A stretch of DNA of 64,000 nucleotides. Origin: Cupriavidus taiwanensis. Lineage in GTDB: Bacteria; Pseudomonadota; Gammaproteobacteria; Burkholderiales; Burkholderiaceae. Every line of letters starts with the position of its first letter. The first letter of the stretch is position 1. Made by a program: the position numbers and the translations under genes. The notes beneath the pieces are model-generated. The model was given only the letters and a program-made list of their open reading frames with translations. It made no database searches and was not told the origin of the DNA. The stretch is from NCBI RefSeq assembly GCF_900250115.1, contig NZ_LT984803.1:372001-436000 (forward strand), written 5' to 3'. This document shows, one piece after another, positions 26,971-48,053 of the stretch.

Positions 26971-27094
26971 TCCCCTCTCCCGCGGGCTGGAGAGGGTTAG
27001 GGTGAGGGCGGGCGCATCGCAGTCTGGTGCCGCTCATCGCCAGGTACGCGCCTGCCCTCACCCCCGGCCCCTCTCCCGCGAGCGGGAGAGGGGA
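26971..27094. repeat. Dispersed composite palindromic repeat, copy A
   Basis: About 124 bp. A left hairpin built on CCCTCTCC/GGAGAGGG is followed by GGGTGAGGGC, a core of about 37 bases, then the complementary GCCCTCACCC and a right hairpin CCCCTCTCCCGC/GCGGGAGAGGGG. The core (around 27012-27050) is divergent from the other copies. It fills most of the 319-bp gap between tetR and queF, which otherwise holds only the AT-rich putative operator. Confidence 0.85.
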
Positions 27095-27115
27095 GCAAAC
27101 AAGCGTAGTTCAAGG

Positions 27116-27949
27116 CTACTGCCGCGCATTCCTCTTGTTATCCGGCCACGCCGTATTGAAGTTGGTGCGGAACGGATTGATATCCAGCCCCCCACGCCGC
27201 GTATAGCGCGCATACACCGCCAGCTTGACCGGCTTGCACTGGCGCATCACGTCCATGAAGATGCGCTCGACGCATTGCTCGTGGAATTCGTTGTGGTTGC
27301 GGAACGAGATCAGGTACTTGAGCAGGCCTTCCTGGTTGATCGGCGCGCCGACGTAGCGGATCTGCACGCTGCCCCAGTCCGGCTGGCCGGTCACCAGGCA
27401 GTTGGACTTGAGCAGGTGCGACACCAGCGTTTCTTCCACCGGCGTTTCTTCCTGGTCGGCGCCGAGCAGCTCCGGCGCGGGCTCGTAGCGGTCCACCTCG
27501 ATGTCGAGGCGGTCCAGCAGCAGGCCGTCGAGCTCGCCCATCTTCTGCGTGCCGAGCTCCGCCTCGGTCACCAGCCGCACCTGCACGGTGCCGCCGGTGG
27601 CTTCGGAAAGGTCGTGGTGCAGCAGTTGCTGCAGCGCTTCGGGCGACGCGATCCGGGTCTGGTTGAACGAGTTCAGGTAGAGCTTGAACGACTTGGACTC
27701 GATGATGCTGGGCGTGTCCGACGGGATGATGAAGGTGGCCAGCGCCACCTGCGGCTTGCCCTTCAGGTTCAGCCACGACAGCTCGTACGCGTTCCAGATG
27801 TCGACGCCGAAGAACGGCACCGACCGGCCCTCGGGCAGCCCGATCTCGGTGCGCTTGGGTTGGCGCGGGATCGGGAACAGCAGGGTGGCGTCGTATTCGG
27901 TCTTGTAGGCCGCGGGCTTGCCCAGCGGCGAGTGTTCTGGAAGGCTCAT
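27116..27949 (-). CDS. queF: NADPH-dependent 7-cyano-7-deazaguanine reductase
   Basis: A 277-residue long-type (unimodular, YkvM/YqcD-related E. coli class) QueF, which reduces preQ0 to preQ1 in queuosine biosynthesis. The signature [14 protein letters not shown] lies at about residues 84-97. The catalytic Cys is Cys184 in [16 protein letters not shown], and the substrate-binding [10 protein letters not shown] follows. Length and motif spacing match the E. coli enzyme. It sits 16 bp upstream of ilvA in the direction opposite to its neighbours' function, with no other queuosine genes in view. No preQ1-type leader was seen. Confidence 0.96.
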
Positions 27950-27965
27950 GGGGCGCTCGGCGGCA

Positions 27966-29504
27966 TCAGGACAGGAACAGCTTGTACACCGGGTTGTCGG
28001 TCTCGTCCCAGTGTACGTAACCCAACGTCGAAAGGAAGGCGCGGAAGGCGCGCTTCTCGTTCTTCGGCACCTGGATGCCGACCAGGATGTTGGAGGTGTC
28101 GGCGCCCTGGTTGCGGTAGTGGAACAGGCTGATGTTCCAGTTCGGGCTCATGCTCGACAGGAACTTCATCAGCGCGCCCGGGCGCTCCGGGAACTCGAAG
28201 CGGTACAGCAGTTCATCGTGCGCCAGCGCCGAGCGCCCGCCCACCATGTAGCGGATATGCTGCTTGGCGAGCTCGTCGTTGGACAGGTCGAGCGTGTCGA
28301 AGCCATGCTTGCGGAAGCTGGCGGCGATCTTGTCGTTCTCGGCGCGGCTGGCGATCTGCACGCCAACGAAGATATGCGCCATGCTGGTGTCGGCGATGCG
28401 GTAGTTGAACTCGGTCACGTTGCGCGTGCCGACCAGCTCGCAGAAGCGCTTGAAGCTGCCGCGCTCTTCCGGGATGGTCACGGCGAACACGCCTTCGCGG
28501 GCCTCGCCCACCTCGGCGCGCTCGGCGACAAAGCGCAGGCGGTCGAAATTCATGTTGGCGCCGCAGGCGATCGCCACCAGGTGCTCGCCCTTGAGCTTCT
28601 CGCGCTCGGCGTACGCCTTCAGGCCTGCCACCGCCAGCGCGCCGGCCGGCTCGAGGATGCTGCGGGTGTCCTGGAACACGTCCTTGACGCCCGCGCAGAT
28701 CGCGTCGGTATCGCACAGGATGATGTCGTCGACCAGTTCGCGCGTGATGCGGAAGGTCTCCTTGCCGACCAGCCGGACCGCGGTGCCGTCCGAGAACAGG
28801 CCAACTTCCTTCAGCTCGATGCGCTTGCCGGCATCGACCGAGCGCTTCATCGCATCCGAATCTACCGTCTGCACGCCGATGACCTTGATCTCCGGGCGCA
28901 CCGCCTTGATGTACGCGGCGACGCCGGAGATCAGCCCGCCGCCGCCGATGGCGACGAACACGGCATGGATCGGGCCCGGGTGCTGGCGCAGGATTTCCAT
29001 GGCGATGGTGCCCTGGCCGGCGATCACCTCGGGGTCGTCGAACGGGTGGATGAAGGTCAGCTTGTGCTTTTTCTCCAGCACCGCGGCGTGGTTGTAGGCA
29101 TCGCTGTAGGACTCGCCGTGCAGCACGATCTCGACCCACTGCCCGCCGCGCTCGCGCACGGCGTCGATCTTCACCTGCGGCGTGGTCACCGGCATGGCAA
29201 TGATGGCCTTGCATTGCAGCCTGGCCGCCGCCAGCGCCACGCCCTGGGCATGGTTGCCCGCAGACGCGGCGATCACGCCGCGCTTGAGTTCCTCGGGCGC
29301 CAGCGAGGCCATCTTGTTGTACGCGCCGCGCAGCTTGAAGGAGAAGACCGGCTGGGTGTCCTCGCGCTTGAACCAGACCGAATTGCCGGTGCGGGCCGAC
29401 AGCTGGTGCGCATAGGTCAGTTCGGTCTCCTGCGCCACGTCATAGACCTTGGCGGTCAGGATCTTCTTCAGGTAATCGGGTCGGGCTGCGGACTGGCGGG
29501 TCAT
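27966..29504 (-). CDS. ilvA: Threonine ammonia-lyase, biosynthetic (threonine deaminase)
   Basis: A 512-residue IlvA, which converts threonine to 2-oxobutanoate in isoleucine synthesis. The PLP lysine is Lys57 in [12 protein letters not shown], and the phosphate-binding glycine loop is IGGGGLISG. Two C-terminal ACT-like domains (about 330-400 and 425-505, beginning [14 protein letters not shown] and [14 protein letters not shown]) are those of the isoleucine-inhibited biosynthetic form. The start [16 protein letters not shown] is chosen by alignment; the frame is open further upstream without support. It is followed 16 bp later by queF. Confidence 0.97.
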
Positions 29505-29805
29505 GGTCTCGGGGCTGGCCGGCGCACGCGCGGCAGGCGCGCAAAAAAGCCGGGAAATTCTGGCGGAAACCGTCAATGATAAAGGATGCCGGCCTGGCGC
29601 ACCCGGTCGGGGCGGCGCAGCCGCCGCCTGGCCGCGCTGCCCGCCACGCGTGGGCCGTGGCGGCGGAGTGGATCGGCATTCACCCGGGGCATGGCGCGCC
29701 CGCCCGGCCGGGAGCCGGGCTTGCCTCGGCCCCGGGTTGCGCTTGCGCCATGTAGGACGGCGCCCGGTGGACGCAGGCCAAAACGACGTGTTACGGTGTA
29801 ACGCG
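29505..29805. other. 301-bp divergent intergenic region between ilvA and otsB
   Basis: No gene is seen. Just before the otsB start is a short inverted repeat GTTAC-GGT-GTAAC (about 29790-29802) that would overlap the promoter or ribosome site and could be an operator. The rest is GC-rich with no clear promoter hexamers. Confidence 0.35.
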
Positions 29806-30612
29806 ATGCCACAGCTACCGCTTATCGAACCCAATACCGCCCTGTTTCTCGACTTCGACGGCACGCTGGCCGACCTGGCCCCGCGGCCCGAACTGGTGCA
29901 GGTCGAACCAGAACTGGTCGGCACGCTGCGCACGCTGTACCAGCGGCTGGACGGCGCGCTGGCCGTCATCTCGGGGCGGCCGATCATCGAACTCGATCAC
30001 TTCCTGCAGCCGCTGCAACTGCCCGCGGCCGGCATCCACGGCGCCGAATTCCGCACCGACGGCGGCATGGTGACCAAGACCCCGGCGCCCGGGCTCGAAC
30101 CCCTGATCCCCCACCTGGAAGCGCTGGTGCACGCCTATCCGGCCCTGCGGCTCGAGCGCAAGTCGGTCGCGGTCGCGATCCACTACCGCCAGGCGCCCGA
30201 GCTGGCCGGCATCGTCGATGCCGCGGTCACTGACGTATTGCGCCATGCCGTCGGGCTGGAGGCGCTGCCGGGCAAGATGGTGGTCGAGATCAAGCCCGCC
30301 GGCGTCGATAAGGGCGATGCCATCGCGGCCTTCATGAAGGCCGCGCCGTTTGCCGAGCGCGTGCCGCTCTTTGCCGGCGACGACATGACCGACGAACCCG
30401 GCTTCGCCGCGGTGCGCAAGCTGGGTGGCCTGGGCGTGCTGGTGGGCCAGCGCGAGACCGTCGCCACGGTAACCGTGCCCGGGCCGGCGGCGCTGCGCAG
30501 CTGGCTGCACCGCTCGGCGCATGCGCTGGCGTCGGCGGCCAGCGCCGGCGCAGCGCGCGCCGTGCCCCACGAGGCCGGGCCGGGCCGGGGCCGGCGCCCA
30601 ACCACATCGTAA
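29806..30612 (+). CDS. otsB: Trehalose-6-phosphate phosphatase
   Basis: A 268-residue HAD-superfamily phosphatase. Motif I is FLDFDGTLADL with the nucleophile Asp16 and general acid Asp18. Motif II/III and the acidic motif FAGDDMTDEPGF are as in OtsB. It dephosphorylates trehalose 6-phosphate made by OtsA, encoded 2 kb downstream in the same direction. The C-terminal ~35 residues are an alanine/arginine-rich extension. The next gene starts 13 bp after its stop, so the three genes probably form an operon. Confidence 0.95.
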   Translation: MPQLPLIEPNTALFLDFDGTLADLAPRPELVQVEPELVGTLRTLYQRLDGALAVISGRPIIELDHFLQPLQLPAAGIHGAEFRTDGGMVTKTPAPGLEPLIPHLEALVHAYPALRLERKSVAVAIHYRQAPELAGIVDAAVTDVLRHAVGLEALPGKMVVEIKPAGVDKGDAIAAFMKAAPFAERVPLFAGDDMTDEPGFAAVRKLGGLGVLVGQRETVATVTVPGPAALRSWLHRSAHALASAASAGAARAVPHEAGPGRGRRPTTS

Positions 30613-30625
30613 CGGAGAACCTGCC

Positions 30626-32491: not shown

Positions 32492-32567
32492 GCGGCGAAG
32501 CGGCGGCGGCACCCGCGCACGGCAGGCAGTGCCGGCACCCAGGACAAGGAACTGAAGAAAAACATCT

Positions 32568-33959
32568 ATGCCAAGACTTGTAGCTGTATCCAACCGGGTC
32601 GCAGATCCACGCAACGTCGCCGCGGGCGGCCTGGCCGTCGCGCTGTCCGAGGCCCTGCGCCAGACCGGCGGCCTGTGGTTCGGCTGGAGCGGCAAGGCGC
32701 TGGAAACCGCCCAGGGTGGCACGCCCGGCGAAGGCGACCTGCACCTCCAGCAGGCCGGCAACGTCACGCTGGCCACGGTCGACCTGAGCCGCGAGGACCA
32801 TGATGCCTATTACCTCGGCTACAGCAACGGCGTGCTGTGGCCGGTGTTCCACTACCGTCTCGACCTGGCCGATTTCGATTCCAACTTCCTCAACGGCTAC
32901 CGGCGCGTGAACCAGCTGTTCGCGCGCAAGCTGGCGCCGCTGCTGCAGCCCGACGACATCATCTGGATCCACGACTACCACCTGATCCCGCTCGCGTCCG
33001 AGCTGCGCGCGATCGGCTGCGGGCAGAAGATCGGCTTCTTCCTGCACGTGCCGCTGCCGCCGCCGCTGATCCTGGCCGCGATCCCGCAGCACGAGTGGCT
33101 GATGCGCGCGCTGTTCGCCTACGACCTGCTCGGTTTCCAGAGCCATGCCGACGTCGAGCATTTCTCGCGCTACGTGCAGGCCGAGGCGCAGGCCGAGCCG
33201 ATGGGCGAGCACCGCTACCGCGCCTTCCACCGCACGGTGCGGGCGCAGGCGTTCCCGATCGGCATCGACGTCGACGAGTTCATGGAACTGGGCCGCGGCG
33301 AGGAAGCGCAGGAAACCTACGAGATGATGTGCGCGCAGTACGCGCGCCGCCGGCTGCTGCTGGGCATCGACCGGCTCGACTATTCCAAGGGCCTGCCGCA
33401 GCGGCTCAAGGCGTTCTACCGGCTGCTGGCCGAGTACCCCGAGAACCGCTCGAGCGCGACCCTGGTGCAGATCGCCGCGCCCTCGCGCGAATCGGTCGAT
33501 GCCTATGTCGACCTGCGCCGCGAGATGGAGCAGCTGAGCGGCTCGATCAACGGCGAATTCGGCGAGCTCGACTGGATGCCGGTGCGCTATATCCACCGCA
33601 CCACCGCGCGCAAGCGGCTGCCCGGGCTGTGCCGCGCCAGCCGCGTGGCGCTGGTGACGCCGCTGCGCGACGGCATGAACCTGGTGGCCAAGGAATTCAT
33701 CGCGGCGCAGGACCCGGAGGATCCGGGCGTGCTGGTGCTGTCGCGCTTTGCCGGAGCGGCCGAGCAACTGCGCGAGGCGCTGCTGGTCAATCCCTACGAC
33801 ACGCGCGCCACCGCCCAGGCAATCCAGCAGGCGCTGCACATGCCGCTGGCCGAGCGCCAGCAGCGCCACCAGAAGCTGCTGGAGCGCATCCGCGCGCAGG
33901 ATGTGCACTGGTGGAGCCGTGAGTACCTGCGCGCACTGACTGAGACCGAGGGCGCATAG
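32568..33959 (+). CDS. otsA: Alpha,alpha-trehalose-phosphate synthase (UDP/GDP-glucose forming)
   Basis: A 463-residue GT20 family glycosyltransferase that joins a nucleotide-glucose and glucose 6-phosphate. The N-terminus [35 protein letters not shown] and the [17 protein letters not shown] donor-site segment are all canonical, as is the C-terminal [16 protein letters not shown]. Length matches E. coli OtsA. It is last in the otsB-GH15-otsA run, preceded by AAGGAACTGAAG. Trehalose made this way is an osmoprotectant and stress solute. Confidence 0.97.
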
Positions 33960-34013: not shown

Positions 34014-34367
34014 ATGAGCGAGAACCTGGCAGAGCAATCCTGCACGCCGTGCCGTGGCGGCGTGCCGCCGCTGACGCCCGACGAGGCCGAGGCGCTGTTG
34101 CAGCAGGCGCCCGGCTGGGAGCTGGCCGATGGCGCGACGCGGCTGGAACGGCGTTTCACCTTCGGCAATTTCGCGCAGGCGCTGGCATTCGTGAACGGCG
34201 TCGGCCAGCTGGCCGAGGCGCAGGGGCATCATCCCGACATCAGCTTTGGCTGGGGACATGCCACGGTGTCGTGGCGCACCAAGAAGATCAAGGGCCTGCA
34301 CCGCAATGATTTCATCATGGCGGTGAAGACTACGGAGCTGGCCGAGGGGCAGGACGGGGGCGGCTGA
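34014..34367 (+). CDS. phhB: Pterin-4a-carbinolamine dehydratase
   Basis: A 117-residue protein with the family signature EAQGHHPDISFGW at about residues 70-82 and WRTKKIKGLHRNDFIMA following. The enzyme dehydrates 4a-hydroxytetrahydropterin and recycles the cofactor of phenylalanine hydroxylase; no phhA lies in the window. The ATG is preceded by GGGGAG. Some members have been proposed to act in molybdopterin-related chemistry, and a molybdenum hydroxylase cluster lies close by, but the two are convergent and separated by a repeat, so a link is speculative. Confidence 0.93.
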   Translation: MSENLAEQSCTPCRGGVPPLTPDEAEALLQQAPGWELADGATRLERRFTFGNFAQALAFVNGVGQLAEAQGHHPDISFGWGHATVSWRTKKIKGLHRNDFIMAVKTTELAEGQDGGG

Positions 34368-34429
34368 GGCTGCTGCGGCGCCTCGCGGGCATGCCTAGCA
34401 GCGTTGTCGTTCGAACCACCGTAAGCCGG

Positions 34430-34553
34430 TCCCCTCTCCCGCCTGCGGGAGAGGGCCAGGGTGAGGGCGGGAGCATCAACGAAGTGAAGGCCGTCGCTAT
34501 TGCCACCGCCCGCCCTCACCCCCGCCCCTCTCCCGCGCGCGGGAGAGGGGAGC
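34430..34553. repeat. Dispersed composite palindromic repeat, copy B (inverted core)
   Basis: About 124 bp with left hairpin CCCCTCTCCCGC/GCGGGAGAGGG, GGGTGAGGGCGGG, a core, GCCCTCACCCCC and a right hairpin CCCCTCTCCCGC/GCGGGAGAGGGG. The core at 34479-34497, read on the minus strand, is GCGACGGCCTTCACTTCGT, 17 of 19 identical to copy C, so this copy is in the opposite orientation to C and D. It lies between two convergent genes and could also act as a bidirectional terminator. Confidence 0.9.
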
Positions 34554-34584
34554 ACACCAGCGGGATGGGAAGGCATCCTCAGCC

Positions 34585-35190
34585 TCAGCGCAGATCCGCC
34601 GGCGTATCGATATCCCGGAACGCGCCCTCGTCCTCCGTCAGGATCCGCGTCACCGGCTTGTCCTTCAGCAGCGCGCGCGCGCCTTCGTCGCCATCCAGTT
34701 CCAGCAGGGCGTCGCGCCAGGCCGCGCCAAAGCCGACCGGATGTCCGCGCTGGCCGTTGCGCCACGGGGCCGCGATGGTATCGGGCGAGGTGATCGTCAG
34801 CGCCACGGCGCGGATCAGCTCCATCGGCAGCCACGGCATGTCGGCCAGCGCCACCACCCAGCCGCGCGCCTCGGGCGTGGCCGCGACCGCGGCGCGCAGC
34901 GCCGCGCCCATGCCGGCTTCGGCCTCGGGCGCTTCCAGCACGCGGCAGCCGCCGCGGCGCAGTTCCTCCGCCAGCGCGGGGTTGCCGGGGCGGATCACGG
35001 CGATCGATTCCGGCAGCGCCGCGGCCAGCGTGCGGGCGCTGCGCCAGGCCACAGTGCGTCCGCCGGGCAGGGCCTCGAGCAGCTTGTTGCGCTGGCCGGC
35101 GGCATCGAAGCGGCGGCCGAAGCCCGCGGCCAGCAGGATGCCGGTGGGCAGGTCGGTGCGGAGCAGGGGAGCGTTGGGGGCGGCGGTCAT
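34585..35190 (-). CDS. mocA: MobA-like NTP transferase (molybdenum cofactor cytidylyltransferase, MocA type)
   Basis: A 201-residue nucleotidyltransferase. The nucleotide-binding start GILLAAGFGRRFD (residues ~17-29), NKLLEALPGGRTV, VALADMPWLP and GQRGHPVGFG match MocA, which makes molybdopterin cytosine dinucleotide for xanthine-dehydrogenase-family enzymes. It is the last gene of the leftward molybdenum hydroxylase cluster, 19 bp after xdhC, so it most likely supplies the cytosine form of the cofactor to the enzyme encoded upstream. A purine-transferring activity cannot be excluded from sequence alone. Confidence 0.87.
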   Translation of the reverse strand: MTAAPNAPLLRTDLPTGILLAAGFGRRFDAAGQRNKLLEALPGGRTVAWRSARTLAAALPESIAVIRPGNPALAEELRRGGCRVLEAPEAEAGMGAALRAAVAATPEARGWVVALADMPWLPMELIRAVALTITSPDTIAAPWRNGQRGHPVGFGAAWRDALLELDGDEGARALLKDKPVTRILTEDEGAFRDIDTPADLR

Positions 35191-35209
35191 GGCGGCACTC
35201 GCGGGGACG

Positions 35210-36247
35210 TCAGGCGGGATCGGGCGCCACGTCGCAACTGCTGCCGGTGCTGGCAGCCATTTCGCGCGCGGCCTTGGCGCCTTCCACCTGCAGGATGTCG
35301 GGCAGCGACACGTGATTCTTGGCCGCGATGACCTCGGCCAGGATCGAGATCGCTATCTCCGGCGGCGTGCGGCTGCCGATATAGATGCCCACCGGGCCGT
35401 GCAGCCGCGCCAGCTGCAGCTCGGTCAGGTCGAATTCCTTGAGCCGTTCGCGGCGCGCCTGGTTGTTGCGGCGCGAGCCCAGCGCGCCCACATAGAAGGC
35501 GCGGGTGCGCAGCGCTTCCATCAGCGCCAGGTCGTCCAGCTTGGGGTCGTGGGTCAGCGCGATCACCGCGCAGCGCTCGTCCAGCTTCATGTCGGTGACG
35601 GTGTCGTCTGGCATGGTGCGCACCATGGTGACGCCGGCAATGTCCCAGGTCTCGGTGTACTCCTCGCGCGGGTCGCAGACGGTGACCTGGAAGCCCAGGC
35701 CGACGGCGATCTGGCACAGGTACTTGGACAGCTGCCCGGCGCCGATCACCAGCATGCGATAGCGCGGGCCGTGGATGGTGAGGAGGGACTTGCCGTCGAA
35801 CGCCAGCCCGTCGGTGGCGTTGGCCGGGCCCAGCGTGGCCACGCCCGTAGTCATGTCCAGCGTGCGCGCGACCAGCCGGCCGTTCTCAACGGCATCGAGC
35901 AGTTCGGCAATGCCGCTGGCCGGCTTGAGCGGCTCGGCGACCAGCTCGATGGTGCCGCCGCACGGCAGGCCAAAGCGGTGCGCCTCCTCGGCGCTGATGC
36001 CGTACTTGATCGCTTCGGGGCGGTCCGAAGTGATGCCTTGCCGGCGCACGCGGTCGATGATGTCGTCCTCGATGCAGCCGCCCGAGACCGAGCCCACCAC
36101 CAGGCCGTCGTCGCGCACCGCCAGCATCGCGCCCTCGGGACGGGGCGACGAGCCCCAGGTCCGCACTACCGTCACCAGCAGCACGCGATGGCCCTGCTGC
36201 TGCCACTGCACGCTGTTCTTCAGGACTTCGAGATCCACGCTGTCCAT
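35210..36247 (-). CDS. XdhC/CoxI family molybdenum enzyme maturation protein
   Basis: A 345-residue XdhC-family protein. The N-terminal XdhC domain has TWGSSPRPEGAMLAV and GSVSGGCIEDDII. The C-terminal part is a Rossmann domain with MLVIGAGQLSKYLCQIA and CDPREEY. Such proteins bind the molybdenum cofactor, help its sulfuration and insert it into xanthine-dehydrogenase-type hydroxylases. It overlaps the end of the CoxG-like gene by 28 bp and precedes mocA by 19 bp, consistent with one maturation operon. Confidence 0.93.
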   Translation of the reverse strand: MDSVDLEVLKNSVQWQQQGHRVLLVTVVRTWGSSPRPEGAMLAVRDDGLVVGSVSGGCIEDDIIDRVRRQGITSDRPEAIKYGISAEEAHRFGLPCGGTIELVAEPLKPASGIAELLDAVENGRLVARTLDMTTGVATLGPANATDGLAFDGKSLLTIHGPRYRMLVIGAGQLSKYLCQIAVGLGFQVTVCDPREEYTETWDIAGVTMVRTMPDDTVTDMKLDERCAVIALTHDPKLDDLALMEALRTRAFYVGALGSRRNNQARRERLKEFDLTELQLARLHGPVGIYIGSRTPPEIAISILAEVIAAKNHVSLPDILQVEGAKAAREMAASTGSSCDVAPDPA

Positions 36248-36777
36248 GATCGTTTCCGCTTCGCTTGCTCTGTCGGTTCGTTATCGCCGGCGGCTGCGGC
36301 GGGGGCGCCCTCGGCCGCTGGCGTGCTGTCTGTGGCGTCAGGGGTGACGGCCTCGGTGAAGCGCGCAAAGAAGGTGTCAGCCATCTTGCGTGCCGCGGCG
36401 TCCACCAGCCGCGAGCCGATCTGTGCGATCTTGCCCCCCACCTGGGCGTTGACGGTATAGGTCAGGACAGTTTCGTCGCCGTCTGGTTCCAGCCGGACCC
36501 GGGCACTGCCCTTGCCGAAGCCCGCCGCGCCACCCTGGCCGTCGAAACGGATGGTGTAGCTGTCGGGCGCCTGGATGTCTTCGAGCGCCATGCGGCCCTT
36601 GAAGCGCGCCTTGACCGGGCCCACCGCGGCCGTCATGGCCAGCAGGTAGGCGTGGTCGCCGTCGGGCTCGATACTCTCACATCCCGGGATGCATTGCTTG
36701 AGCAACTCGGTGTCGTTGAGCGCTTCCCATGCCACCTGCTGCGGGACCGGCAGGCGCTGGCTCTGGTTCATTTCCAT
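36220..36777 (-). CDS. coxG: CoxG-like SRPBCC family protein
   Basis: A 185-residue carbon monoxide dehydrogenase subunit G-like protein. The fold is apparent from the start MEMNQSQRLPVPQQVAWEAL, NDTELLKQCIPGCESIE, VGPVKARFKGRMAL and GGKIAQIGSRLVDAAARKMA. The last ~45 residues are a low-complexity Ala/Glu/Pro tail ending KRKRSWTAWISKS. CoxG homologues assist membrane attachment or assembly of CO-dehydrogenase-like enzymes. It overlaps the CoxE-like gene by 10 bp and xdhC by 28 bp. Confidence 0.92.
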   Translation of the reverse strand: MEMNQSQRLPVPQQVAWEALNDTELLKQCIPGCESIEPDGDHAYLLAMTAAVGPVKARFKGRMALEDIQAPDSYTIRFDGQGGAAGFGKGSARVRLEPDGDETVLTYTVNAQVGGKIAQIGSRLVDAAARKMADTFFARFTEAVTPDATDSTPAAEGAPAAAAGDNEPTEQAKRKRSWTAWISKS

Positions 36778-38033
36778 GGCGGGGCTTCCTTGTGGGGCGG
36801 GGCGGGAATGGCGGTAGTGGCGGCGCGGGCCGGGCCGCCGTGTTCGGACAGCAGCGTCTCGAGCGCCAGCAGGCTGTCCAGGTTATGGGCCGGCCGCAGC
36901 GCGTCGACGTGCGGCAGGATGGCCTGCACGCCACGCGCCTGCGGCGTGAAGCCGGGGTAGCGCAGCAGCGGGTTGAGCCAGACGATGCGGTGGGCAAAGC
37001 GGCGCAGCCGCGCCATCTCTTCGCCCAGCAGCTCGATCTGCTCGTGATCCAGGCCGTCGGTGACGAGCAGCACGGTGGCGCGCCCGGACAGCGTGCGCCG
37101 CGCCCAGTGGCGGTTGAAGCTCGCCAGCGCCGCGCCGATGCGGGTGCCGCCGGCCCAGTCGCGCACCTGGCCTGTGATCACGGCGACGGCTTCGTCGGGA
37201 TCGCGTTCGCGCAGCGAGCGGGTGATGTTGGTCAGCCGCGTGCCGAACAGGAACACCGCCAGCCGCTCGCGCGACTGCATCAGCGCATGGCAGAAGTACA
37301 GCACCGCGCGCGAGTACTGGCTCATCGAGCCGGAGATGTCGAGCAGCAGCACCAGCGGCGGCTTGCGCTCGGCGTGCTTGCGCAATTTCCAGCGCAGCCA
37401 CTCGCCGTGCTGGCGCACCGCCAGGCGCGCGCTGGCGCGCAGGTCGGCGTGGCTGCCGCAGGTGGCGGCGCGCAGCCGGCGCGTGCGCTGCAGGGCCAGA
37501 TGGGTGCGGCGGGTGCGCACCAGGTGCTGCAGCGCGCGCCATTCCTGCGCGCTCAGGGTTTCGAAGTCACGTTGCGCCAGGCGCTCCTGATCGGAGAAGG
37601 TCAGCGGCACGTGGATGCGTTCCGCCTCGGTCTGCGCCGGGCGCGACGGCATTTCCGGCTGGCGCGCGGCGAGCGCATCGGCAAGACGGTTGCTGCGCCT
37701 GGGGGGCGGCGCGCCCGCGTCGACACGCGGCAGCAGCAGAGCGCGCAGCTTGCCTTCCCAGTCGGGATCGCGCCAGAACAGGTCGAAGGCGGCGTCGAAC
37801 AGGGGGCGTTGGTCGGGACCGGACAGCACCAGCGCCGCCAGCGCGGCGCGCACCTCGTCGCGCTGGCCGATATCGACCAGGCGTAGCGCGGCCAGGGCAT
37901 CGACCGCGTGCGCCGGCGACAGGGCGAAGCCGCCATCGCGCAGCAGCCGCATGAAGTGGGTGACGTTGCGCGCCAGCACCGGCAGTCCCCCCTGCGGACC
38001 GCGGCTGCGCGCGCCGGCGTGCAGCATCGGCAC
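36768..38033 (-). CDS. coxE: CoxE-like von Willebrand factor A domain protein
   Basis: A 421-residue protein with an N-terminal helical region (~20-200) and a C-terminal vWA domain whose MIDAS motif is DISGSMS beginning at Asp232, followed by VLLVTDGLDHE. In Oligotropha carboxidovorans CoxE works with the AAA+ ATPase CoxD to mature the Cu-S-Mo centre. Here it starts 3 bp after the MoxR/CoxD-type ATPase gene and overlaps the CoxG-like gene by 10 bp, the classical D-E-G order. Family assignment is firm; the precise chaperone role is inferred. Confidence 0.92.
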   Translation of the reverse strand: MPMLHAGARSRGPQGGLPVLARNVTHFMRLLRDGGFALSPAHAVDALAALRLVDIGQRDEVRAALAALVLSGPDQRPLFDAAFDLFWRDPDWEGKLRALLLPRVDAGAPPPRRSNRLADALAARQPEMPSRPAQTEAERIHVPLTFSDQERLAQRDFETLSAQEWRALQHLVRTRRTHLALQRTRRLRAATCGSHADLRASARLAVRQHGEWLRWKLRKHAERKPPLVLLLDISGSMSQYSRAVLYFCHALMQSRERLAVFLFGTRLTNITRSLRERDPDEAVAVITGQVRDWAGGTRIGAALASFNRHWARRTLSGRATVLLVTDGLDHEQIELLGEEMARLRRFAHRIVWLNPLLRYPGFTPQARGVQAILPHVDALRPAHNLDSLLALETLLSEHGGPARAATTAIPAPPHKEAPPWK

Positions 38034-38036
38034 GGC

Positions 38037-38933
38037 TCAGCCTCCCGGCGTGGCGCGCGCCAGCAATTCCGCCACGGTGGGGCCGTCGACGCGTGCCAGG
38101 TCGTCCTGGTATTTGAGCAGCACGCCCAGGGTATCGCGCACCGATTGCGGATCGAGCTCGGTGGTGCCCAGCGCCGCCAGCGCGCGGCACCAGTCGATGG
38201 CCTCGGCGATGCCGGGCGCCTTGAACAGGTCGATGCCGCGCAGCCGGTGCACGAAGTCGATCGCCTGCACCTGCAGCGCGGCCGCGGCCTCGGGTGCGCG
38301 CGCGGCGACGATCTGCAGCTCGCGGTCGCGTTCGGGATAGCCCACCCACTGGTACAGGCAACGGCGCTTGAGCGCGTCGTGGACCTCGCGTGTGCGGTTG
38401 GAGGTGATCACGATCAGAGGGGGCCGCTCGGCGCGGATCACGCCGATTTCGGGAATCGAAACCTGGAATTCGGACAGCACCTCGAGCAGGAAGGCCTCGA
38501 ACGGTTCGTCGGCGCGGTCGATCTCGTCGATCAGCAGCACGCGCGGCACGCCCGGTGCGGCGGGATCGGGCAGCAGCGACTCCAGCAGGGGGCGCTTGAG
38601 CAGGTAGTCGTCGTGGTACAGCGACTGCGCCTCGGGCCGCTCGCCACGGGCTTCGGCCAGGCGCAGCGCCATGATCTGGCGGGGGTAGTCCCATTCATAC
38701 AGCGCGCTGGCGGCGTCGAGTCCTTCATAGCACTGAAGCCGCAGCAGACGCGTGCCGAGCACGCCGGCCATCGCCTGCGCCAGTGCGGTCTTGCCGACGC
38801 CGGGCTCGCCTTCGAGGAACAGCGGCCGCTGCATGCGCATGGCAAGGTAGAGCACCGTGGCGGTTTCGCGGTCGGCGAAGTATTGCTGGTGTTCGAGCTG
38901 GGCGAGGGTGTCGTCGATGGAAGTGGGGAGCAT
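38037..38933 (-). CDS. coxD: MoxR-type AAA+ ATPase (CoxD-like)
   Basis: A 298-residue AAA+ protein. Walker A is GEPGVGKT at residues 42-49, Walker B is VLLIDEIDRAD near 140, and sensor 1 is IVITSNRTREVHDALKRR. Partnered with the downstream CoxE-like vWA protein it should act as a metallo-chaperone for the molybdenum hydroxylase. The start MLPTSIDDTLAQLEHQ is chosen because upstream frame runs into repeat copy C. About 200 bp, mostly the repeat, separate it from the structural genes upstream. Confidence 0.93.
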   Translation of the reverse strand: MLPTSIDDTLAQLEHQQYFADRETATVLYLAMRMQRPLFLEGEPGVGKTALAQAMAGVLGTRLLRLQCYEGLDAASALYEWDYPRQIMALRLAEARGERPEAQSLYHDDYLLKRPLLESLLPDPAAPGVPRVLLIDEIDRADEPFEAFLLEVLSEFQVSIPEIGVIRAERPPLIVITSNRTREVHDALKRRCLYQWVGYPERDRELQIVAARAPEAAAALQVQAIDFVHRLRGIDLFKAPGIAEAIDWCRALAALGTTELDPQSVRDTLGVLLKYQDDLARVDGPTVAELLARATPGG

Positions 38934-38978
38934 GAAGAGATCTATATTGCCGACGCGTCTCGCACGCCAGCGGTTTGC

Positions 38979-39104
38979 TCCCCTCTCCCACTTGTGGGAG
39001 AGGGGCGGGGGGTGAGGGCGGGCGCTGGCAACTGCGACGGCGCTCACTTCGTGGAGGCGCCGGCCCCCACCCCCGGCCCCTCTCCCGCGTTGCGGGAGAG
39101 GGGA
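38979..39104. repeat. Dispersed composite palindromic repeat, copy C
   Basis: About 126 bp with left hairpin CCCCTCTCCCAC/GTGGGAGAGGGG and right hairpin CCCCTCTCCCGC/GCGGGAGAGGGG, inner GGTGAGGGCGGG and a weaker pairing arm. The core at 39034-39052 is GCGACGGCGCTCACTTCGT. It interrupts the otherwise continuous leftward operon between the FAD subunit gene and the MoxR-type gene. Confidence 0.9.
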
Positions 39105-39132
39105 GACCACAACGGGGGGACGCGAAGCGCTA

Positions 39133-39933
39133 TCAGCCTTTGGTCGCCGCCTCCACCGCCCTGGCCGCCAGCACCGGAATCAGATGCGCCCGGTACTCCG
39201 CCGACGCATGCAGGTCGGTATTCAGCTTCCCCGCATCGACCTTCACCCCACGCGCCGCCTGCGCGCTGAAGTCGGCCGACAACGCCTGCTCCAGCGGCTG
39301 GCACCGGAACACGCTGTCGGCAGCTCCGGTGACCGCCACGCGCACCGTATTCTTTGAGCGCGCCACCATCACCCCCACCAGCGCAAAGCGCGATGCGGGA
39401 TTGTGGAACTTCACATATGCCGCCTGATCCGGGATCGGGAAGCGCACCGCGGTGATCAGTTCGTCCGGCTCCAGCGCGGTCTCATACAGACCCTTGAAAA
39501 AATCATCCGCCGCGATGCTGCGCCGGTCGGTGACCACCGTAGCGCCCAGCCCCAGCACCGCCGCCGGATAGCAGGCCGCCGGATCATCATTGGCCAGCGC
39601 GCCGCCGATGGTGCCCATCGCGCGCACCTGGCGGTCGCCGATGCCGCCTGCCAGCGCCGCCAGCGCCGCGATGCGCTGGCGCACCTCGGCGTTGGCTTCG
39701 ACGTCGGCATGACGCGCCGCGGCGCCGATGACGATCTCCTTGCCTTCGACGCGGATCGCGGCCATGCCGGGGATGCGCGCGACGTCGACCAGCGTCGACG
39801 GCGATGCCAGCCGCAGCTTCATCGCCGCCAGCAGGCTCTGGCCGCCGCCCAGGAACTTGGCGTCGGGATCGGCCTTGAGTTTGGCCACTGCCGCCTTGGC
39901 ATCCGCGGCGCGTTCAAAGTTGAATGCGTACAT
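39133..39933 (-). CDS. Molybdenum hydroxylase FAD-binding (medium) subunit
   Basis: A 266-residue CoxM/XdhB-type subunit. FAD motifs are FLGGGQSLLAAMKLRLASPS (residues ~27-46) and RAMGTIGGALANDDPAACYP (~105-124), followed by the C-terminal CO_deh_flav_C domain. It passes electrons from the Fe-S subunit to the final acceptor. It is third in the small-large-medium leftward gene order, 26 bp after the large subunit, and is followed by repeat copy C and then the maturation genes. Confidence 0.93.
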   Translation of the reverse strand: MYAFNFERAADAKAAVAKLKADPDAKFLGGGQSLLAAMKLRLASPSTLVDVARIPGMAAIRVEGKEIVIGAAARHADVEANAEVRQRIAALAALAGGIGDRQVRAMGTIGGALANDDPAACYPAAVLGLGATVVTDRRSIAADDFFKGLYETALEPDELITAVRFPIPDQAAYVKFHNPASRFALVGVMVARSKNTVRVAVTGAADSVFRCQPLEQALSADFSAQAARGVKVDAGKLNTDLHASAEYRAHLIPVLAARAVEAATKG

Positions 39934-39959
39934 GTCGGTTTCCTTTGCGGTGCGGTGGC

Positions 39960-42341
<2,382 letters not shown>

Positions 42342-42352
42342 GGCGGTCTCCC

Positions 42353-42841
42353 TCATTCGGCGCTGGACTGCATGGCCGCCTGGCCCTGCTGCACCGCGCG
42401 CACGATATTGTGGTAGCCGGTGCAGCGGCACAGGTTGCCTTCCAGGTGCTTGCGGATGGTGGCGGCGTCGGCGCCGGGATGTTCCTGGACCAGTGCGGTC
42501 GCGCTCATCACCATGCCCGGCGTGCAGAAGCCGCATTGCAGCCCGTGGCATTCGCGGAAGGCCTCCTGCATCGGATGCAGGCCGTTGCCGACCTTGTCGC
42601 CGGCCAGTCCTTCGATGGTGGTCACGGTGGCGCCGTCCGCCTGCAGCGCCAGCAGGTTGCACGACTTGACCGCGCGGCCGTCGAGGTGCACCGTGCAGGC
42701 GCCGCACTGCGCGGTGTCGCAGCCGACGTGGGTGCCGGTCAGGCGCAGCTGTTCGCGCAGGAACTGGACCAGGAGGGTGTTGGGTTCTACCTGCGCGTCA
42801 ACGGGCTTGCCGTTGACCGTCAGGCGGATCGGAATCGCCAT
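42353..42841 (-). CDS. Molybdenum hydroxylase [2Fe-2S] small subunit
   Basis: A 162-residue iron-sulfur subunit. The plant-type cluster ligands are Cys41, Cys46, Cys49 and Cys61 ([16 protein letters not shown]). The second, XDH-type cluster uses Cys103, Cys106, Cys138 and Cys140 (CGFCTPGM and [12 protein letters not shown]). The start at 42841 ([11 protein letters not shown]) is favoured by GGAG at a proper distance; an ATG four codons upstream lacks this. It is the first structural gene of the leftward cluster, 11 bp before the large subunit gene. Confidence 0.95.
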
Positions 42842-43160
42842 GCTTGTCTCCATGTGGGGTGGACGCGCATGACCAATACCCAGATCCCCAAAGCAAAGCG
42901 CGGGACTGGCCACGACGCGGTACTGCCGCTTAAGACGGCTATAGGACGGCTAATTCGTGATATTGGTGCTGCCGCTGCAACTGCTGTTGGTGCGCCAGCG
43001 AACCTTGCGGCCGGCGCATCGGCACGGCCGGCGAACGTTTGGCCGCGACAGGCTCTAACAGTTAATCACAAATCCCGCACAGGTGCCATGTGGTTTGCCC
43101 GCGCCCCGTTTGGGGCACGGCCCGCTAGAATGAGCCGGGCCACCGGCCCTGTCCCCTTAC
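42842..43160. other. 319-bp divergent intergenic region
   Basis: No gene is seen. It lies between the molybdenum hydroxylase operon (leftward) and the YqaA-like gene (rightward). TAGAAT at 43126-43131 is a possible -10 hexamer for the rightward gene, but the preceding GC-rich hairpin GCCCC-GTTT-GGGGC (43103-43116) occupies the -35 position. No leftward promoter is clear. Confidence 0.4.
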
Positions 43161-43739
43161 ATGGAAGCCTTCTTCGACTGGCTGTTCGAAACCGTTGCCT
43201 TGCCCAAGGTAGGCCTGCCCGCGATCTTCGTGGTCAGCCTGGTGTCGGCCACCTTGCTGCCGCTCGGCTCCGAGCCCGCCGTGTTCGGCTACGTCAAGCT
43301 CGATCCGCAGATGTTCTGGCCGGCGATCCTGGTGGCCACCGCCGGCAACACGGTCGGCGGCGCGATCGACTGGTGGCTGGGCTACGCCGCCAAGCTGGCG
43401 CTGGTGCGCTACCACAAGCGCCGCCGCGCGCGCGAGCACGAGGCCGAGCACCTGGAGCACCGCGCCCACGCGCGCAAGCCGCCCAAGCCCAAGCTCGATG
43501 TCCGCTACTTCCGCTGGATGCGCCGGCTGGGCCCGCCCACGCTGCTGCTGTCGTGGCTGCCTGCTGTTGGTGATCCGTTGTGCACTTTGGCGGGCTGGCT
43601 GCGCCTGTCATTCTGGCCCAGCCTGGCGTGGATGGCCGTGGGCAAGTTCCTGCGCTACCTGGTCATGACCGCAGGCCTGATGTGGATCCCGGACACTTTC
43701 TGGCAGAACATTGCGCACACGTTAAAGGCCTGGTTCTGA
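43161..43739 (+). CDS. YqaA/VTT-domain inner membrane protein with charged insertion
   Basis: A 192-residue membrane protein related to YqaA and the DedA/VTT superfamily. Helices flank conserved LVSATLLPLGSEPAVFGYV and ATAGNTVGGAIDWWLG in the first half and LSWLPAVGDPLCTLAGWLR in the second. Between them, residues ~84-112 form a basic, His/Arg/Glu-rich hydrophilic stretch (RRRAREHEAEHLEHRAHAR) that makes the protein about 50 residues longer than E. coli YqaA. VTT proteins are linked to lipid scrambling or flippase activities; YqaA itself is uncharacterised. Confidence 0.85.
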   Translation: MEAFFDWLFETVALPKVGLPAIFVVSLVSATLLPLGSEPAVFGYVKLDPQMFWPAILVATAGNTVGGAIDWWLGYAAKLALVRYHKRRRAREHEAEHLEHRAHARKPPKPKLDVRYFRWMRRLGPPTLLLSWLPAVGDPLCTLAGWLRLSFWPSLAWMAVGKFLRYLVMTAGLMWIPDTFWQNIAHTLKAWF

Positions 43740-43800
43740 TGGCCGGGCGGCTCCGGCGCCGTTTTCGCGGCCGGATACGGCCGCCACGCAGCGCTAATCC

Positions 43801-43861
43801 CTTGTTCCGACAAGGATTCCGTCATGCTGCGGTGCGGCGAAAGCAGGGCTTGCAGTACAAT
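43801..43861 (+). promoter_or_regulatory. Possible promoter/operator upstream of the large oxidoreductase
   Basis: TACAAT at 43856-43861 is a good -10 hexamer about 60 bp before the start codon; the -35 is poor (TGCGGC). Upstream at 43801-43814 is a perfect inverted repeat CTTGT-TCCG-ACAAG that could bind a regulator. Confidence 0.35.
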
Positions 43862-43919
43862 CGCCCTTTACTGAACGATTCGCGCACTGTCCCCGTGCGC
43901 AGCAGGAAGCGGTCCCCCC

Positions 43920-46900
43920 ATGAACGCCCCACTCGTGCTCGACGCCAAGCTCGCCGCGCAGGACGCCCCGCCGCGCCTGCGTGAAATCCCCTATAACTAC
44001 ACGTCCTTCTCGGACCGCGAGATTGTCATCCGCCTGCTGGGCGAAGAGGCCTGGCGCATCCTGGACGAGCTGCGCAGCGAGCGCCGGACCGGCCGCTCGG
44101 CCCGCATGCTGTACGAGGTGCTGGGCGATATCTGGGTGGTGCGCCGCAACCCCTACCTGCAGGACGACCTGCTGGAAAATCCCAAGCGCCGCCAGATGCT
44201 GGTGAGCGCGCTGCACCACCGCCTCAACGAGATCGAGAAGCGCCGCGCCGCCGACCGTGCCGAGCACGCCGAGCCCGCCGCCGAGGACCGCTCGCACCGC
44301 GTGGAGCAGCTGGTCGCCTTCGCCAAGCAGGCGATCGAAGATTTCAAGAACGAATTCGCCGCCGCCTACGACCTGCGCAAGCGCGCGCAGCGCGTGCTGG
44401 GCCGCGTCACGCAGAAGGACAACATCAAGTTCGACGGCCTGTCGCGCGTGTCGCACGTGACCGACGCCACCGACTGGCGCGTGGAATACCCGTTCGTGGT
44501 GCTGACGCCGGATACCGAGGAAGAGATCGCCGGGCTGGTCAAGGGCTGCTTCGAACTCGGCCTGACCATCATCCCGCGCGGGGGCGGCACCGGCTACACC
44601 GGCGGCGCCGTGCCGCTGACGCCGATGAGCGCGGTGATCAATACCGAGAAGCTGGAACAGCTGGGGCCGGTCGAGCAGACCGACCTGCCGGGTGTGCCGC
44701 ACCAGGTCGCGACCATCTTCTCCGGCGCCGGCGTGGTGACGCGCCGCGTCGCCGATGCCGCCGATCGCGCTGGCCTGGTGTTCGCGGTCGATCCGACTTC
44801 GATCGACGCTTCGTGCATCGGCGGCAATGTCGCCATGAACGCCGGCGGCAAGAAGGCCGTGCTGTGGGGCACCGCGCTCGACAACCTGGCCTGGTGGCGC
44901 ATGGTGGATCCGGAGGGCAACTGGCTGGAAATCACCCGGCTGGACCACAACCTGGGCAAGATCCACGACGTGCCGGTGGCCACCTTCGAGCTGAAGTGGT
45001 CGGACGGCAATCGCGCCCCGGGCGAGAAGGTGCTGCGCACCGAGACGCTCGCCATCGAAGGCCGCAAGTTCCGCAAGGAAGGCCTGGGCAAGGACGTCAC
45101 CGACAAGTTCCTGGCCGGCCTGCCCGGCGTGCAGAAGGAAGGCTGCGACGGCATCATCACCAGCGCGCGCTGGATCCTGCACCGCATGCCGAAGTTCATC
45201 CGCACCGTGTGCCTGGAGTTCTTCGGCCAGGCGCGCGACGCCATCCCCAGCATCGTCGAGATCAAGGACTTCCTCGATGCGGAGACCAAAAAGCCCGGCG
45301 GCGCCATCCTGGCCGGCCTGGAGCACCTGGACGAGCGCTACCTGCGCGCGGTCGGCTATGCCACCAAGAGCAAGCGCAACGCCTTCCCGAAGATGGTGCT
45401 GATCGGCGATATCGTCGGCGACGATGAAGACGCCGTGGCGCGCGCCACCTCGGAAGTGATCCGCATGGCCAACGGCAAGAGCGGCGAAGGCTTTATCGCC
45501 GTCAGCCCGGAGGCCCGCAAGAAGTTCTGGCTCGACCGCTCGCGCACTGCGGCGATCGCGAAGCACACCAACGCCTTCAAGATCAACGAAGACGTGGTGA
45601 TCCCGCTCAACCGCATGGGCGAGTACACCGACGGCATCGAGCGCATCAATATCGAGCTGTCGATCAAGAGCAAGCTGCAGCTGGTCGACACGCTGGAAGC
45701 GTTCTTCGCGCGCGGCAACCTGCCGCTGGGCCGCAGCGACGACGCCAACGAGATTCCCAGCGCCGAGCTGCTGGAAGACCGCGTGCAGCACGCGCTGACG
45801 CTGCTGCGCGAGATCCGCGCGCGCTGGCGCTATCTGCAAGCCCATCTCGACACGCCGCTGGCGCAGGCCAGGGCCTCGCTGATCGGGCACGGGCTGGGAC
45901 TGCTGGGCCAGGAGTTCGAGGCGCGGCTGCAGCAGCAGCCGGACGCGACCGTGTTCCACCTGCTGCAGGACCGCACCATCCGCGTGTCGTGGAAGACCGA
46001 GATCCGCGCCGAGCTGCGCAAGATCTTCAACGGCGGCGAGTTCAAGCCGATCCTGGACGAAGCCCAGAAGATCCACAAGCAGGTGCTGCGCGGCCGCGTC
46101 TTCGTCGCGCTGCACATGCACGCCGGCGACGGCAATGTGCACACTAACATCCCGGTCAACTCCGACGACTACGACATGCTGCAGGACGCGCACCGCGCGG
46201 TGGCCCGCATCATGGACCTGGCGCGTTCGCTGGACGGCGTGATTTCCGGCGAGCACGGCATCGGCATCACCAAGCTGGAGTTCCTGACCGAGGAAGAGAT
46301 CGGCGACTTCCGCGCCTACAAGCAGAAGGTCGACCCGCAGGGCCGCTTCAACAAGGGCAAGCTCCTGCCTGGCGCCGACCTGCGCAATGCCTACACGCCG
46401 TCGTTCGGCCTGATGGGGCATGAGTCGATCATCATGCAGCAGAGCGACATCGGCGCGATTGCCGAGAGCGTCAAGGACTGCCTGCGCTGCGGCAAGTGCA
46501 AGCCGGTGTGCGCCACGCACGTGCCGCGTGCCAACCTGCTGTACAGCCCGCGCAACAAGATCCTGGCGACCTCGCTGCTGGTCGAGGCCTTCCTGTATGA
46601 AGAGCAGACCCGCCGCGGCATCTCGGTCAAGCACTGGGACGAGTTCTCCGACGTGGCCGACCACTGCACGGTTTGCCACAAGTGCGTGACGCCGTGCCCG
46701 GTCAAGATCGACTTCGGCGACGTGTCGATGAACATGCGCAACCTGCTGCGCAAGATGGGGCAGAAGAAGTTCAATCCCGGTACCGCGGCGTCGATGTTCT
46801 TCCTCAACGCCACCAACCCCGAGACCATCAACCTGACCCGCAAGGTCATGATCGACTGGGGCTACAAGGCGCAGCGCCTGGGCAACGAGGTGCTGAAGAA

Positions 46901-47894
46901 GCTGGCGAAGAAGCAGACCGCGCATCCGCCCGCGACGGTTGGCAAGCCGCCGGTGCGCGAGCAGGTGATCCACTTCATCAACAAGAAGATGCCGGGCAAC
47001 CTGCCCAAGAAGACCGCGCGCGCGCTGCTCGACATCGAAGACAACGAGATCGTGCCGATCATCCGCGACCCCAAGGCGACCACGCCGGAAACGGAAGCGG
47101 TGTTCTACTTCCCGGGCTGCGGCTCGGAGCGGCTGTTCTCGCAGGTGGGGCTGGCGACGCAGGCGATGCTGTGGCATGTCGGCGTGCAGACCGTGCTGCC
47201 ACCGGGCTACCTGTGCTGCGGCTATCCGCAGCGCGGCAATGGCCAGTACGACAAGGCCGAGAAGATCGTCACCGACAACCGCGTGCTGTTCCATCGCGTC
47301 GCCAACACGCTGAACTACCTCGACATCAAGACCGTGGTGGTCAGCTGCGGCACCTGCTACGACCAGCTCGCGGGCTATGAATTCGACAAGATCTTCCCGG
47401 GCTGCCGCATCATCGACATCCACGAGTACCTGCTCGAGAAGGGCGTCAGGCTGGAGGGCGTGACCGGTACGCGCTACATGTACCACGATCCCTGCCACAC
47501 GCCGATCAAGACCGTCGATCCGACCAAGCTGGTCAACGACCTGATGGGCGGTAACGCCGGCCTGGGCAAGATCGAGAAGAACGAGCGCTGCTGCGGCGAG
47601 TCGGGCACGCTGGCGGTGACGCGTCCTGACATTTCGACCCAGGTCCGCTTCCGCAAGGAAGAGGAAATGACCAGGGGCGCCGACAAGCTGCGCGCCGACG
47701 GCTTCACCGGCGACGTCAAGATCCTGACCAGCTGCCCGTCGTGCCTGCAGGGCCTGTCGCGCTACAAGGAAGACGCGTCGGTGCAGGCGGATTACATCGT
47801 GATCGAGATGGCCAAGCACCTGCTGGGCGAGAACTGGATGCCCGAGTATGTGGCCAAGGCCAATGCGGGTGGCATTGAACGGGTGCTGGTGTAA
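43920..47894 (+). CDS. Large FAD/Fe-S/CCG oxidoreductase with DUF3683
   Basis: A 1324-residue fused enzyme. The N-terminal DUF3683 (~1-190) precedes a PCMH-type FAD domain with [17 protein letters not shown] (~220). Then come a D-lactate-dehydrogenase-like C-terminal FAD oxidase domain with [12 protein letters not shown] and two [4Fe-4S] motifs: C854-x2-C857-x2-C860-x3-C864 and C916-x2-C919-x2-C922-x3-CP. Two CCG domains (~1060-1290) end it, with [28 protein letters not shown] and CCGESG. It joins the catalytic and Fe-S/CCG parts of glycolate or lactate oxidases in one chain. The substrate is probably a 2-hydroxy acid but unproven. Confidence 0.93.
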
Positions 47895-47926
47895 GGCGGC
47901 TACCTTCCCGTTACCCGCGGGTTTGC

Positions 47927-48053
47927 TCCACTCTCCCGCGCGCGGGAGAGTGGCCGGGAGAGAGGGCCGGCGCCTCGCATGGCGACGTCGTTCACTTCGT
48001 GGAGCCTCTCGCCCTCTCCCCCAACCCCTCTCCCGCAAGCGGGAGAGGGGAGA
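47927..48053. repeat. Dispersed composite palindromic repeat, copy D
   Basis: About 127 bp. The left hairpin is CCACTCTCCCGCG/CGCGGGAGAGTGG, with a compensatory base change that keeps pairing. The right hairpin is CCCCTCTCCCGC/GCGGGAGAGGGG. The core at 47982-48000 is GCGACGTCGTTCACTTCGT, 17 of 19 identical to copy C and in the same orientation. It lies in the 190-bp gap between the oxidoreductase and HIT genes. Confidence 0.9.

Follow-up and report, generated by a model that had tools for sequence, protein, structure and literature searches.

Composite palindromes in Cupriavidus taiwanensis probably belong to a REPIN-like family of intergenic repeats that differ in their cores

The window, i.e. 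the whole stretch of 64,000 nucleotides analyzed here, corresponds to C1:372001-436000 in the genome of Cupriavidus taiwanensis (G000; 7.01 Mb on the three contigs C1, C2 and C3) and harbors four composite palindromes, copies A to D, each of which is situated between genes (Table 1). Genes were called with a home-made gene finder based on codon usage and seeded with seven genes having Pfam or NCBIfam matches. Copy A resides between a tetR-type gene (26059-26796, minus strand) and queF (27116-27949, minus strand) and thus in a tandem gap. Copy B is found in a convergent gap formed by a gene at 34014-34367 (plus strand) and a gene for a MobA-like NTP transferase (34585-35190, minus strand). Copy C lies between the tandem genes 39133-39933 and 38037-38933 (both minus strand), the latter encoding a MadB-like ATPase and starting about 45 bp from the element. 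Copy D is located between the tandem genes 43920-47894 (plus strand, FAD/Fe-S oxidase-like) and 48084-48521 (plus strand, HIT domain), 30 bp before the ATG of the HIT gene.

These palindromes were first noticed in an initial annotation, and the observation is real: all four copies of about 125 bp were confirmed with a nested build of hairpin, inner stem, core of about 35 bp, inner stem and hairpin. In copy A the left hairpin is imperfect and the core is other than the shared one (type-4 identity 0.80, z 5.5; type-1 z 1.4). The 19-bp core motif common to copies B, C and D, inverted in B, and the compensatory change in the left hairpin of copy D were found as described. With at most one mismatch, the arm sequence CCCCTCTCCC matches 17 times in the window compared with 5.8 expected, and 17 matches were reached in 0 of 100 shuffles.

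Table 1. Coordinates of the four composite palindromes and their parts within the window
Feature	Position	Strand	Remarks
Copy A, full composite	26971..27094	+	core of type 4 (GCGCATCGCAGTCTGGTGCCGCTCATCGCC..)
Copy A, hairpin 1	26972..26996		3' arm imperfect (CTGGAGAGGG), read directly
Copy A, hairpin 2	27068..27093		pattern match
Copy B, full composite	34430..34553	+	type-1 core, reference orientation
Copy B, hairpin 1	34431..34456		pattern match
Copy B, inner stem, 5' arm	34459..34471		GGGTGAGGGCGGG
Copy B, 19-bp core motif	34479..34497	-	GCGACGGCCTTCACTTCGT on the minus strand; 17/19 to copy C
Copy B, inner stem, 3' arm	34509..34521		CCCGCCCTCACCC
Copy B, hairpin 2	34525..34550		pattern match
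Copy C, full composite	38979..39104	-	type-1 core, inverted relative to B; type-1 z 6.2
Copy C, hairpin 1	38980..39005		compensated CCCAC..GTGGG
Copy C, 19-bp core motif	39034..39052	+	GCGACGGCGCTCACTTCGT
Copy C, hairpin 2	39077..39103		pattern match
Copy D, full composite	47927..48053	-	type-1 core, z 4.9
Copy D, hairpin 1	47928..47953		compensatory change CCACTCTCCC/GGGAGAGTGG
Copy D, 19-bp core motif	47982..48000	+	GCGACGTCGTTCACTTCGT; 17/19 to copy C
Copy D, hairpin 2	48025..48050		pattern match

The hairpins have REP-like arms (CCCCTCTCCC/GGGAGAGGGG) and stand in inverted orientation to each other. Across 48 composites, conservation runs 10-15 bp past the ends listed in Table 1, with GGAGCAAACCNGCGG on one side and, more weakly, roughly CCGCTTGCGTACTCC on the other, and the terminal bases are inverted (GGTTTGCTCC / GGAGCAAACC). 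The inner stem occurs in two compensated forms, GGGTGAGGGC/GCCCTCACCC in 13 and GGGAGAGGGC/GCCCTCTCCC in 11 of 25 copies, with one mixed case (T-A 13, A-T 11). When the hairpins are read as local structures, 97.6% of 800 cells are paired and four pairs have changed on both sides, either value occurring in 0 of 500 shuffles, while the number of further pair types was reached by 15 of 500 shuffles; the structure scored for covariation was itself drawn from the same alignment. Among 20 arm substitutions, nine keep the local and four the long-range pair, six of the nine being the two sides of three compensated pairs. Since arm substitutions favor the local pair, it is apparently the local hairpin whose register is maintained, judged on few events. 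Template switching during the repair of quasi-palindromes can also produce compensatory changes, with no selection involved. The cores are shared rather than random, with 39 of 46 composites scoring z>3 against the main core and seven of 46 falling below, figures that are partly circular because most of the loci scored had been found with the main core.

The "four-copy" element of the initial annotation turned out to be a far larger family once the whole genome was searched. BLAST with copy B yielded at least 93 matches (best 40 of 204 candidates scored). A covariance model built from 25 copies gave at least 143 matches, which a hand count with strands merged reduced to at least 96 distinct composite places (best 150 of 4847 candidates), at least 51 of them on C1 and at least 45 on C2. 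The bare hairpin with exact arms occurs 187 times genome-wide, compared with zero for a reversed-pattern control, and anyone engineering Cupriavidus should bear in mind so large a number of near-identical arms. By the hand count, the density of composites in the window, which rests on four of them, is about four times the C1/C2 average. For C3 (0.60 Mb), about nine composites would be expected from the C1/C2 density; no model or BLAST match on this contig was among the matches listed, and three 20-kb samples (60 kb) contained no hairpin. Within the genus, model matches (E 1e-6) were obtained in at least 57 of 60 Cupriavidus genomes (at most the best 55 candidates scored per genome), with none among the candidates scored in G018, G047 and G050. 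In a family-level sample of 120 genomes, all ten Cupriavidus genomes contain the hairpin (2 to 388 copies; control 0), as does one of the 110 others (two copies in a 70%-complete genome).

Some copies form clusters. By eye, mosaic arrays are apparent on C2 near 288.7, 525.4, 608.4, 655.8 and 1673.0 kb, and four composites are present at 618.0-618.7 kb on the same contig. In these tandem mosaics, elements alternate with a spacer that is alike within one locus; in one array a single hairpin is common to two elements, and some array edges break inside the core (all by eye). Three right-hand half-copies from different C2 arrays (L034, L035 and L036) all stop at GCATC(A/C)ACGAAGTC. In these half-elements, the B-side hairpin and inner stem are joined to the start of the A-side core, as if by inversion or template switch at one point.

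The sites of the four copies were compared with orthologous sites in other Cupriavidus genomes (20 genomes for sites A, B and D; 30 loci for site C, taken from the 60 genomes with a match). In 20 other genomes these sites are empty or occupied by a solo hairpin or a full element. Empty sites in relatives, proposed at the outset as a check, do exist: site B is empty in G008 and G054, with 9-10 bp between the aligned flanks, and site D in G030 and G002, with 8 bp. Comparison with the empty sites revealed no target-site duplication recognizable by eye; boundaries are blurred, element ends are not sharp, and the insert includes variable flanking DNA. Solo hairpins occupy site C in G008, G019, G026, G041, G044, G045, G054 and G055. 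At site D, the solo hairpin of G015 is a perfect palindrome whose left loop and right flank match the full element of G059, the left flank differing at two bases; a deletion between the arms of the two hairpins would be expected to leave such a product.

Where full elements are present, one site can hold different cores in different genomes. Site A has type 4 in G000, G014, G015 and G019 and type 1 in G044. Site B carries type 1 in G000, G014, G046 and G051 and a type-4-like core in G015 (z 4.1). Site C has type 1 in G000, G003, G015, G046 and G059 and type 2 in G002, G014, G025, G030, G033 and G051. At site D, type 1 occurs in G000 and G051, and the cores of G003, G019, G046 and G059 score z<3 for every reference type. 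The sequences of these sites also supplied reference types 2 and 4. As cores differ between genomes at one and the same site, the odd core of copy A is another core type. Site A of G015 contains two tandem copies of the element (L219), in which roughly at least 100 bp of flank have been duplicated along with it; judging from this arrangement, amplification units can exceed the element. In the more distant genomes G013, G053 and G022 (L204, L205 and L207), site C has a different hairpin/core type (CTCCCTCTCCCCTCATGGGGAGAGGG, core with GATCCAGC), and in two of the three a core-hairpin unit is repeated.

Site states do not follow the tree, which was built from six marker pieces of 21 genomes and has four branch supports under 0.5. 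Parsimony requires at least 11 changes among 21 genomes for site C (shuffled mean 10.3, P 0.85), six among 21 for site D (shuffled mean 7.1, P 0.28) and five among 16 for site B (shuffled mean 5.5, P 0.50), where G003, G025, G029, G002 and G026 were dropped because of large or missing gaps. For site D, G008, G045 and G029, with 1.2-1.4 kb of other DNA, were scored as absent. Some states were assigned by eye against the script call: at site C, G035 is full type 2 (script: solo) and the shortened core of G029 was scored type 1 although z<0; at site B, G041, with an enlarged loop, was scored as present (script: none); at site A, the script found nothing in G003, yet a hairpin with an enlarged loop is there. 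The missing relation to the tree points to very fast change at the sites or to transfer of whole regions, and such transfer or wrong branches could mimic site-by-site change.

The position of the elements relative to genes is strongly biased. In the fetched loci of the own genome, which hold part of all copies and in which arrays enter more than once, 113 elements were counted. After leaving out seven at a locus edge, 106 elements with both neighbors remained, 48 of them in convergent, 58 in tandem and none in divergent gaps. The base shares, taken from 210 gaps of at least 40 bp in 20 regular 20-kb samples across the genome, are 62% tandem, 20% divergent and 18% convergent. With elements treated as independent, the probability of finding no divergent case is about 4e-11 and that of at least 48 convergent cases about 8e-11. 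Gaps of the element-centered loci themselves (tandem 137, divergent 31, convergent 4) were set aside as biased. Four hairpins occur in the 17 regular C1/C2 stretches, three of them in scored gaps (two convergent, one tandem). Elements lie at a median of 48.5 bp from the 3' end of a neighbor, and at 88.5 bp where the neighbor's 5' end faces them. At tandem sites the core is oriented opposite to transcription in 14 cases and in the same direction in six, which we did not count as a bias.

This placement at gene 3' ends, together with the preference for convergent gaps, would suit functional RNA or DNA sites, for instance mRNA 3' stabilizers, bidirectional terminators or gyrase/IHF-type sites, that are kept by selection and for which mobility is secondary; REP/BIME repeats are bound by gyrase, IHF and Pol I. 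The locally compensated hairpins would fit as well, and so would the very stable folds: eight RNA folds of the four copies range from -80 to -105 kcal/mol, with z from -5.4 to -9.7. However, copies B to D contain no terminator-like site (five found versus 5.6 expected in the scanned region 34300-48200), and in the alignment the stems are followed by GGGGAGCAAACC or GGGAGTACGC, neither of which is a T-tract. An identity as intrinsic terminator was therefore rejected for these three copies. Rfam returned no match at the gathering threshold, and a conserved need at each site is argued against by relatives in which the orthologous site is empty or reduced, irrespective of their place in the tree. 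Altogether, selection for such a function is a very improbable explanation. If transcribed, the elements are predicted to form hairpins of very high stability, situated at the 3' ends of mRNAs or in the spacers of operons, and because a T-tract is lacking, the predicted effect is more likely to concern mRNA decay than transcription termination.

The elements had initially been proposed to be REP/BIME-type or MITE-like. Of the two outcomes named in advance as refuting the observation, a lack of further copies in the genome and random cores between the hairpins, neither occurred. The first part stands with regard to kind and behavior, whereas neither an autonomous MITE partner, looked for at two places, nor linkage to a RAYT gene was found. 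ERIC and NEMIS-type MITEs are intergenic imperfect palindromes that can be transcribed. The Cupriavidus elements resemble them in being intergenic imperfect palindromes of about the same size but consist of two independent hairpins, also exist as solo hairpins and revealed no clear TIR/TSD signature in the loci compared. As a MITE, the element would derive from a DDE insertion sequence, having lost its autonomy and kept the hairpins as terminal inverted repeats. We consider this improbable to a high degree, despite the inverted terminal bases, a size of 125-150 bp and the existence of empty sites: no target-site duplication was recognized in the site comparisons, hairpins on their own are common (50 solo hairpins called by script in the loci examined), and two pairs of hairpins spaced by about 1.1 and 1.3 kb, examined as candidates for the autonomous partner, enclose ordinary genes, namely one for SAICAR synthetase and one for a PUA/SAM methyltransferase. 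ERIC and NEMIS-type MITEs are named in PMC3733652.

A Y1 (HUH) transposase that is nearly universal in Cupriavidus might instead move the elements in trans from an unlinked place, which would make them RAYT-type REPINs. A Y1_Tnp match over the cut-off is present in 59 of 60 genus genomes (the exception, G012, is 54% complete), and a low-scoring kind (about 29-37 bits, ORFs mostly 239-411 aa) is listed for 58 of 60, missing from G012 and G024. The organization in doublets, singlets and clusters is also the same as that given for P. fluorescens REPINs in PMC3116915. The own genome contains one Y1_Tnp gene, but its product reaches 39.3 bits against a cut-off of 80 in the RAYT model. According to PMC2817692, a RAYT gene invariably has two inverted REPs at its sides; in Cupriavidus, 31 distinct Y1 loci (32 stretches, the own locus being covered twice) had no hairpin in the flanks that were fetched, the loci comprising the own one (11 kb), 17 more of the low-scoring kind and 13 IS200-like genes or fragments. 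A GTAG/GTGG head is present at neither end of the element, the ends reading GTACTCCC and GGTTTGCTCCCC in a 25-row alignment and the flank consensus, and a Y1 gene exists in G018, G047 and G050 as well, all genomes without a model match. Linkage to a RAYT-type transposase, which the initial annotation had recommended looking for, is thus not borne out where tested. A RAYT mobilizer was not adopted after the Y1_Tnp search in the own and 60 genus genomes, and we regard movement in trans by the Y1 enzyme as unlikely.

The low-scoring Y1/RAYT-like gene of the own genome is located at L031 1102-1821 (C1:3230253-3230516, minus strand). Beside it lies what is presumably a dGTPase gene. The adjoining sequence GGGGACAC fits the GGGGWSAS motif of the 'TIRtrons' described in PMC3733652.

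Taken together, we consider it probable (roughly 0.7) that copies A to D are members of a REPIN-like family of intergenic repeats in Cupriavidus, made up of inverted REP-like hairpins, an inner inverted pair and a core of about 35 bp, with solo hairpins arising by deletion and cores changing by conversion. Several traits are REP/BIME-like: copy number is high, the elements are extragenic and placed at gene 3' ends, their hairpins are paired and inverted, the arrays are tandem mosaics, and relatives have empty sites. The doublets of inverted palindromes that form a long hairpin and are accompanied by singlets and clusters are of the REPIN type. Solo hairpins would originate from deletion between the repeated hairpin arms, gene conversion among copies would exchange the cores, a putative enzyme acting in trans may bring the elements to new sites, and copies in promoter regions would be selected away. 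Mobility itself is inferred from sequence comparison, in which a given site is seen occupied, reduced or empty and with different cores; a linked transposase, a target-site duplication or an excision product was not encountered in the loci and sites compared. A bolder idea, which we offer as no more than tentative, is that the hairpins are fixed docking frames in which recombination, without involvement of RAYT transposases, swaps or removes short core cassettes. If so, the moving unit would be the variable part and not the whole repeat, and its change would be fast enough for sister Cupriavidus genomes to differ in state at the same site.

In bacteria, REPs rank with the most abundant repeats outside coding sequence, and RAYT transposases are credited with spreading REPINs. 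In P. fluorescens SBW25, REPINs are REP doublets forming hairpins (PMC3116915), and the Cupriavidus repeats share with them the inverted pair of REP-like palindromes, the less conserved spacer, compensatory changes, singlets, tandem clusters and many intergenic copies. They differ from these REPINs in that they lack the GTAG/GTGG head, have no repeat-flanked RAYT gene in the loci examined, possess an additional inner inverted pair and, from one orthologous site to another, carry cores of three or more types. With E. coli BIMEs, partly covered by PMC2817692, they have in common the mosaics of palindromic units with interspersed motifs, the location at gene 3' ends and the arrays, but the sequence is unrelated. 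REP families without a dedicated transposase have already been described, among the CGTC-tagged REPs and TIR repeats covered in PMC3733652, and the Cupriavidus family, for which no linked transposase was found in the loci examined, resembles them, although it carries neither a CGTC nor a GTAG tag. Cupriavidus, Ralstonia and Burkholderia are absent from the main text of the same source. A previous description of the hairpin family was not found among the papers listed in searches of the open-licence literature, which is weak evidence of absence. Since the GTAG tag is lacking and the fetched flanks of all 31 Y1 loci are free of the hairpin, we file the family as REPIN/BIME-like in working and kind and outside the RAYT-linked REPINs; it is a new relative of REP repeats and not a wholly new kind of element. 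With a REPIN architecture, no RAYT linkage in the loci examined, and individual sites that vary among empty, solo and full even in close relatives, it offers a natural system for studying how repeats move, shrink and exchange parts.

The hairpin family also marks the landing sites of a specialized IS481-family insertion sequence. REPs are known as targets of insertion sequences (PMC1525189), and an IS481-family element using REPs as landing sites has been reported for P. fluorescens SBW25 (PMC11708052). The IS481-like element of Cupriavidus encodes integrase-core domains and is assigned through NF033577, the best NCBIfam match to both parts of one copy, each part scoring below the whole-protein cut-off. 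It is present in 11 copies on C1 and C2 of the own genome (L359-L378), none of which lies in the window. All 11 are inserted into hairpin elements, ten of them exactly in a hairpin loop. The use of REP sequences as landing sites is common to this element and that of SBW25; the repeat family hit is unrelated, and in Cupriavidus it receives all 11 copies. Among the ten loop insertions, seven are flanked by the same hexamer on both sides and two by two different hexamers, and for one a single end was seen. The eleventh copy sits between the inner stem and the hairpin with CCGCCC on both sides, so that eight of the 11 copies have the same 6-mer at either end. Identical flanking hexamers are seen even where the loop reads ATAAAT instead of GCNNGC.
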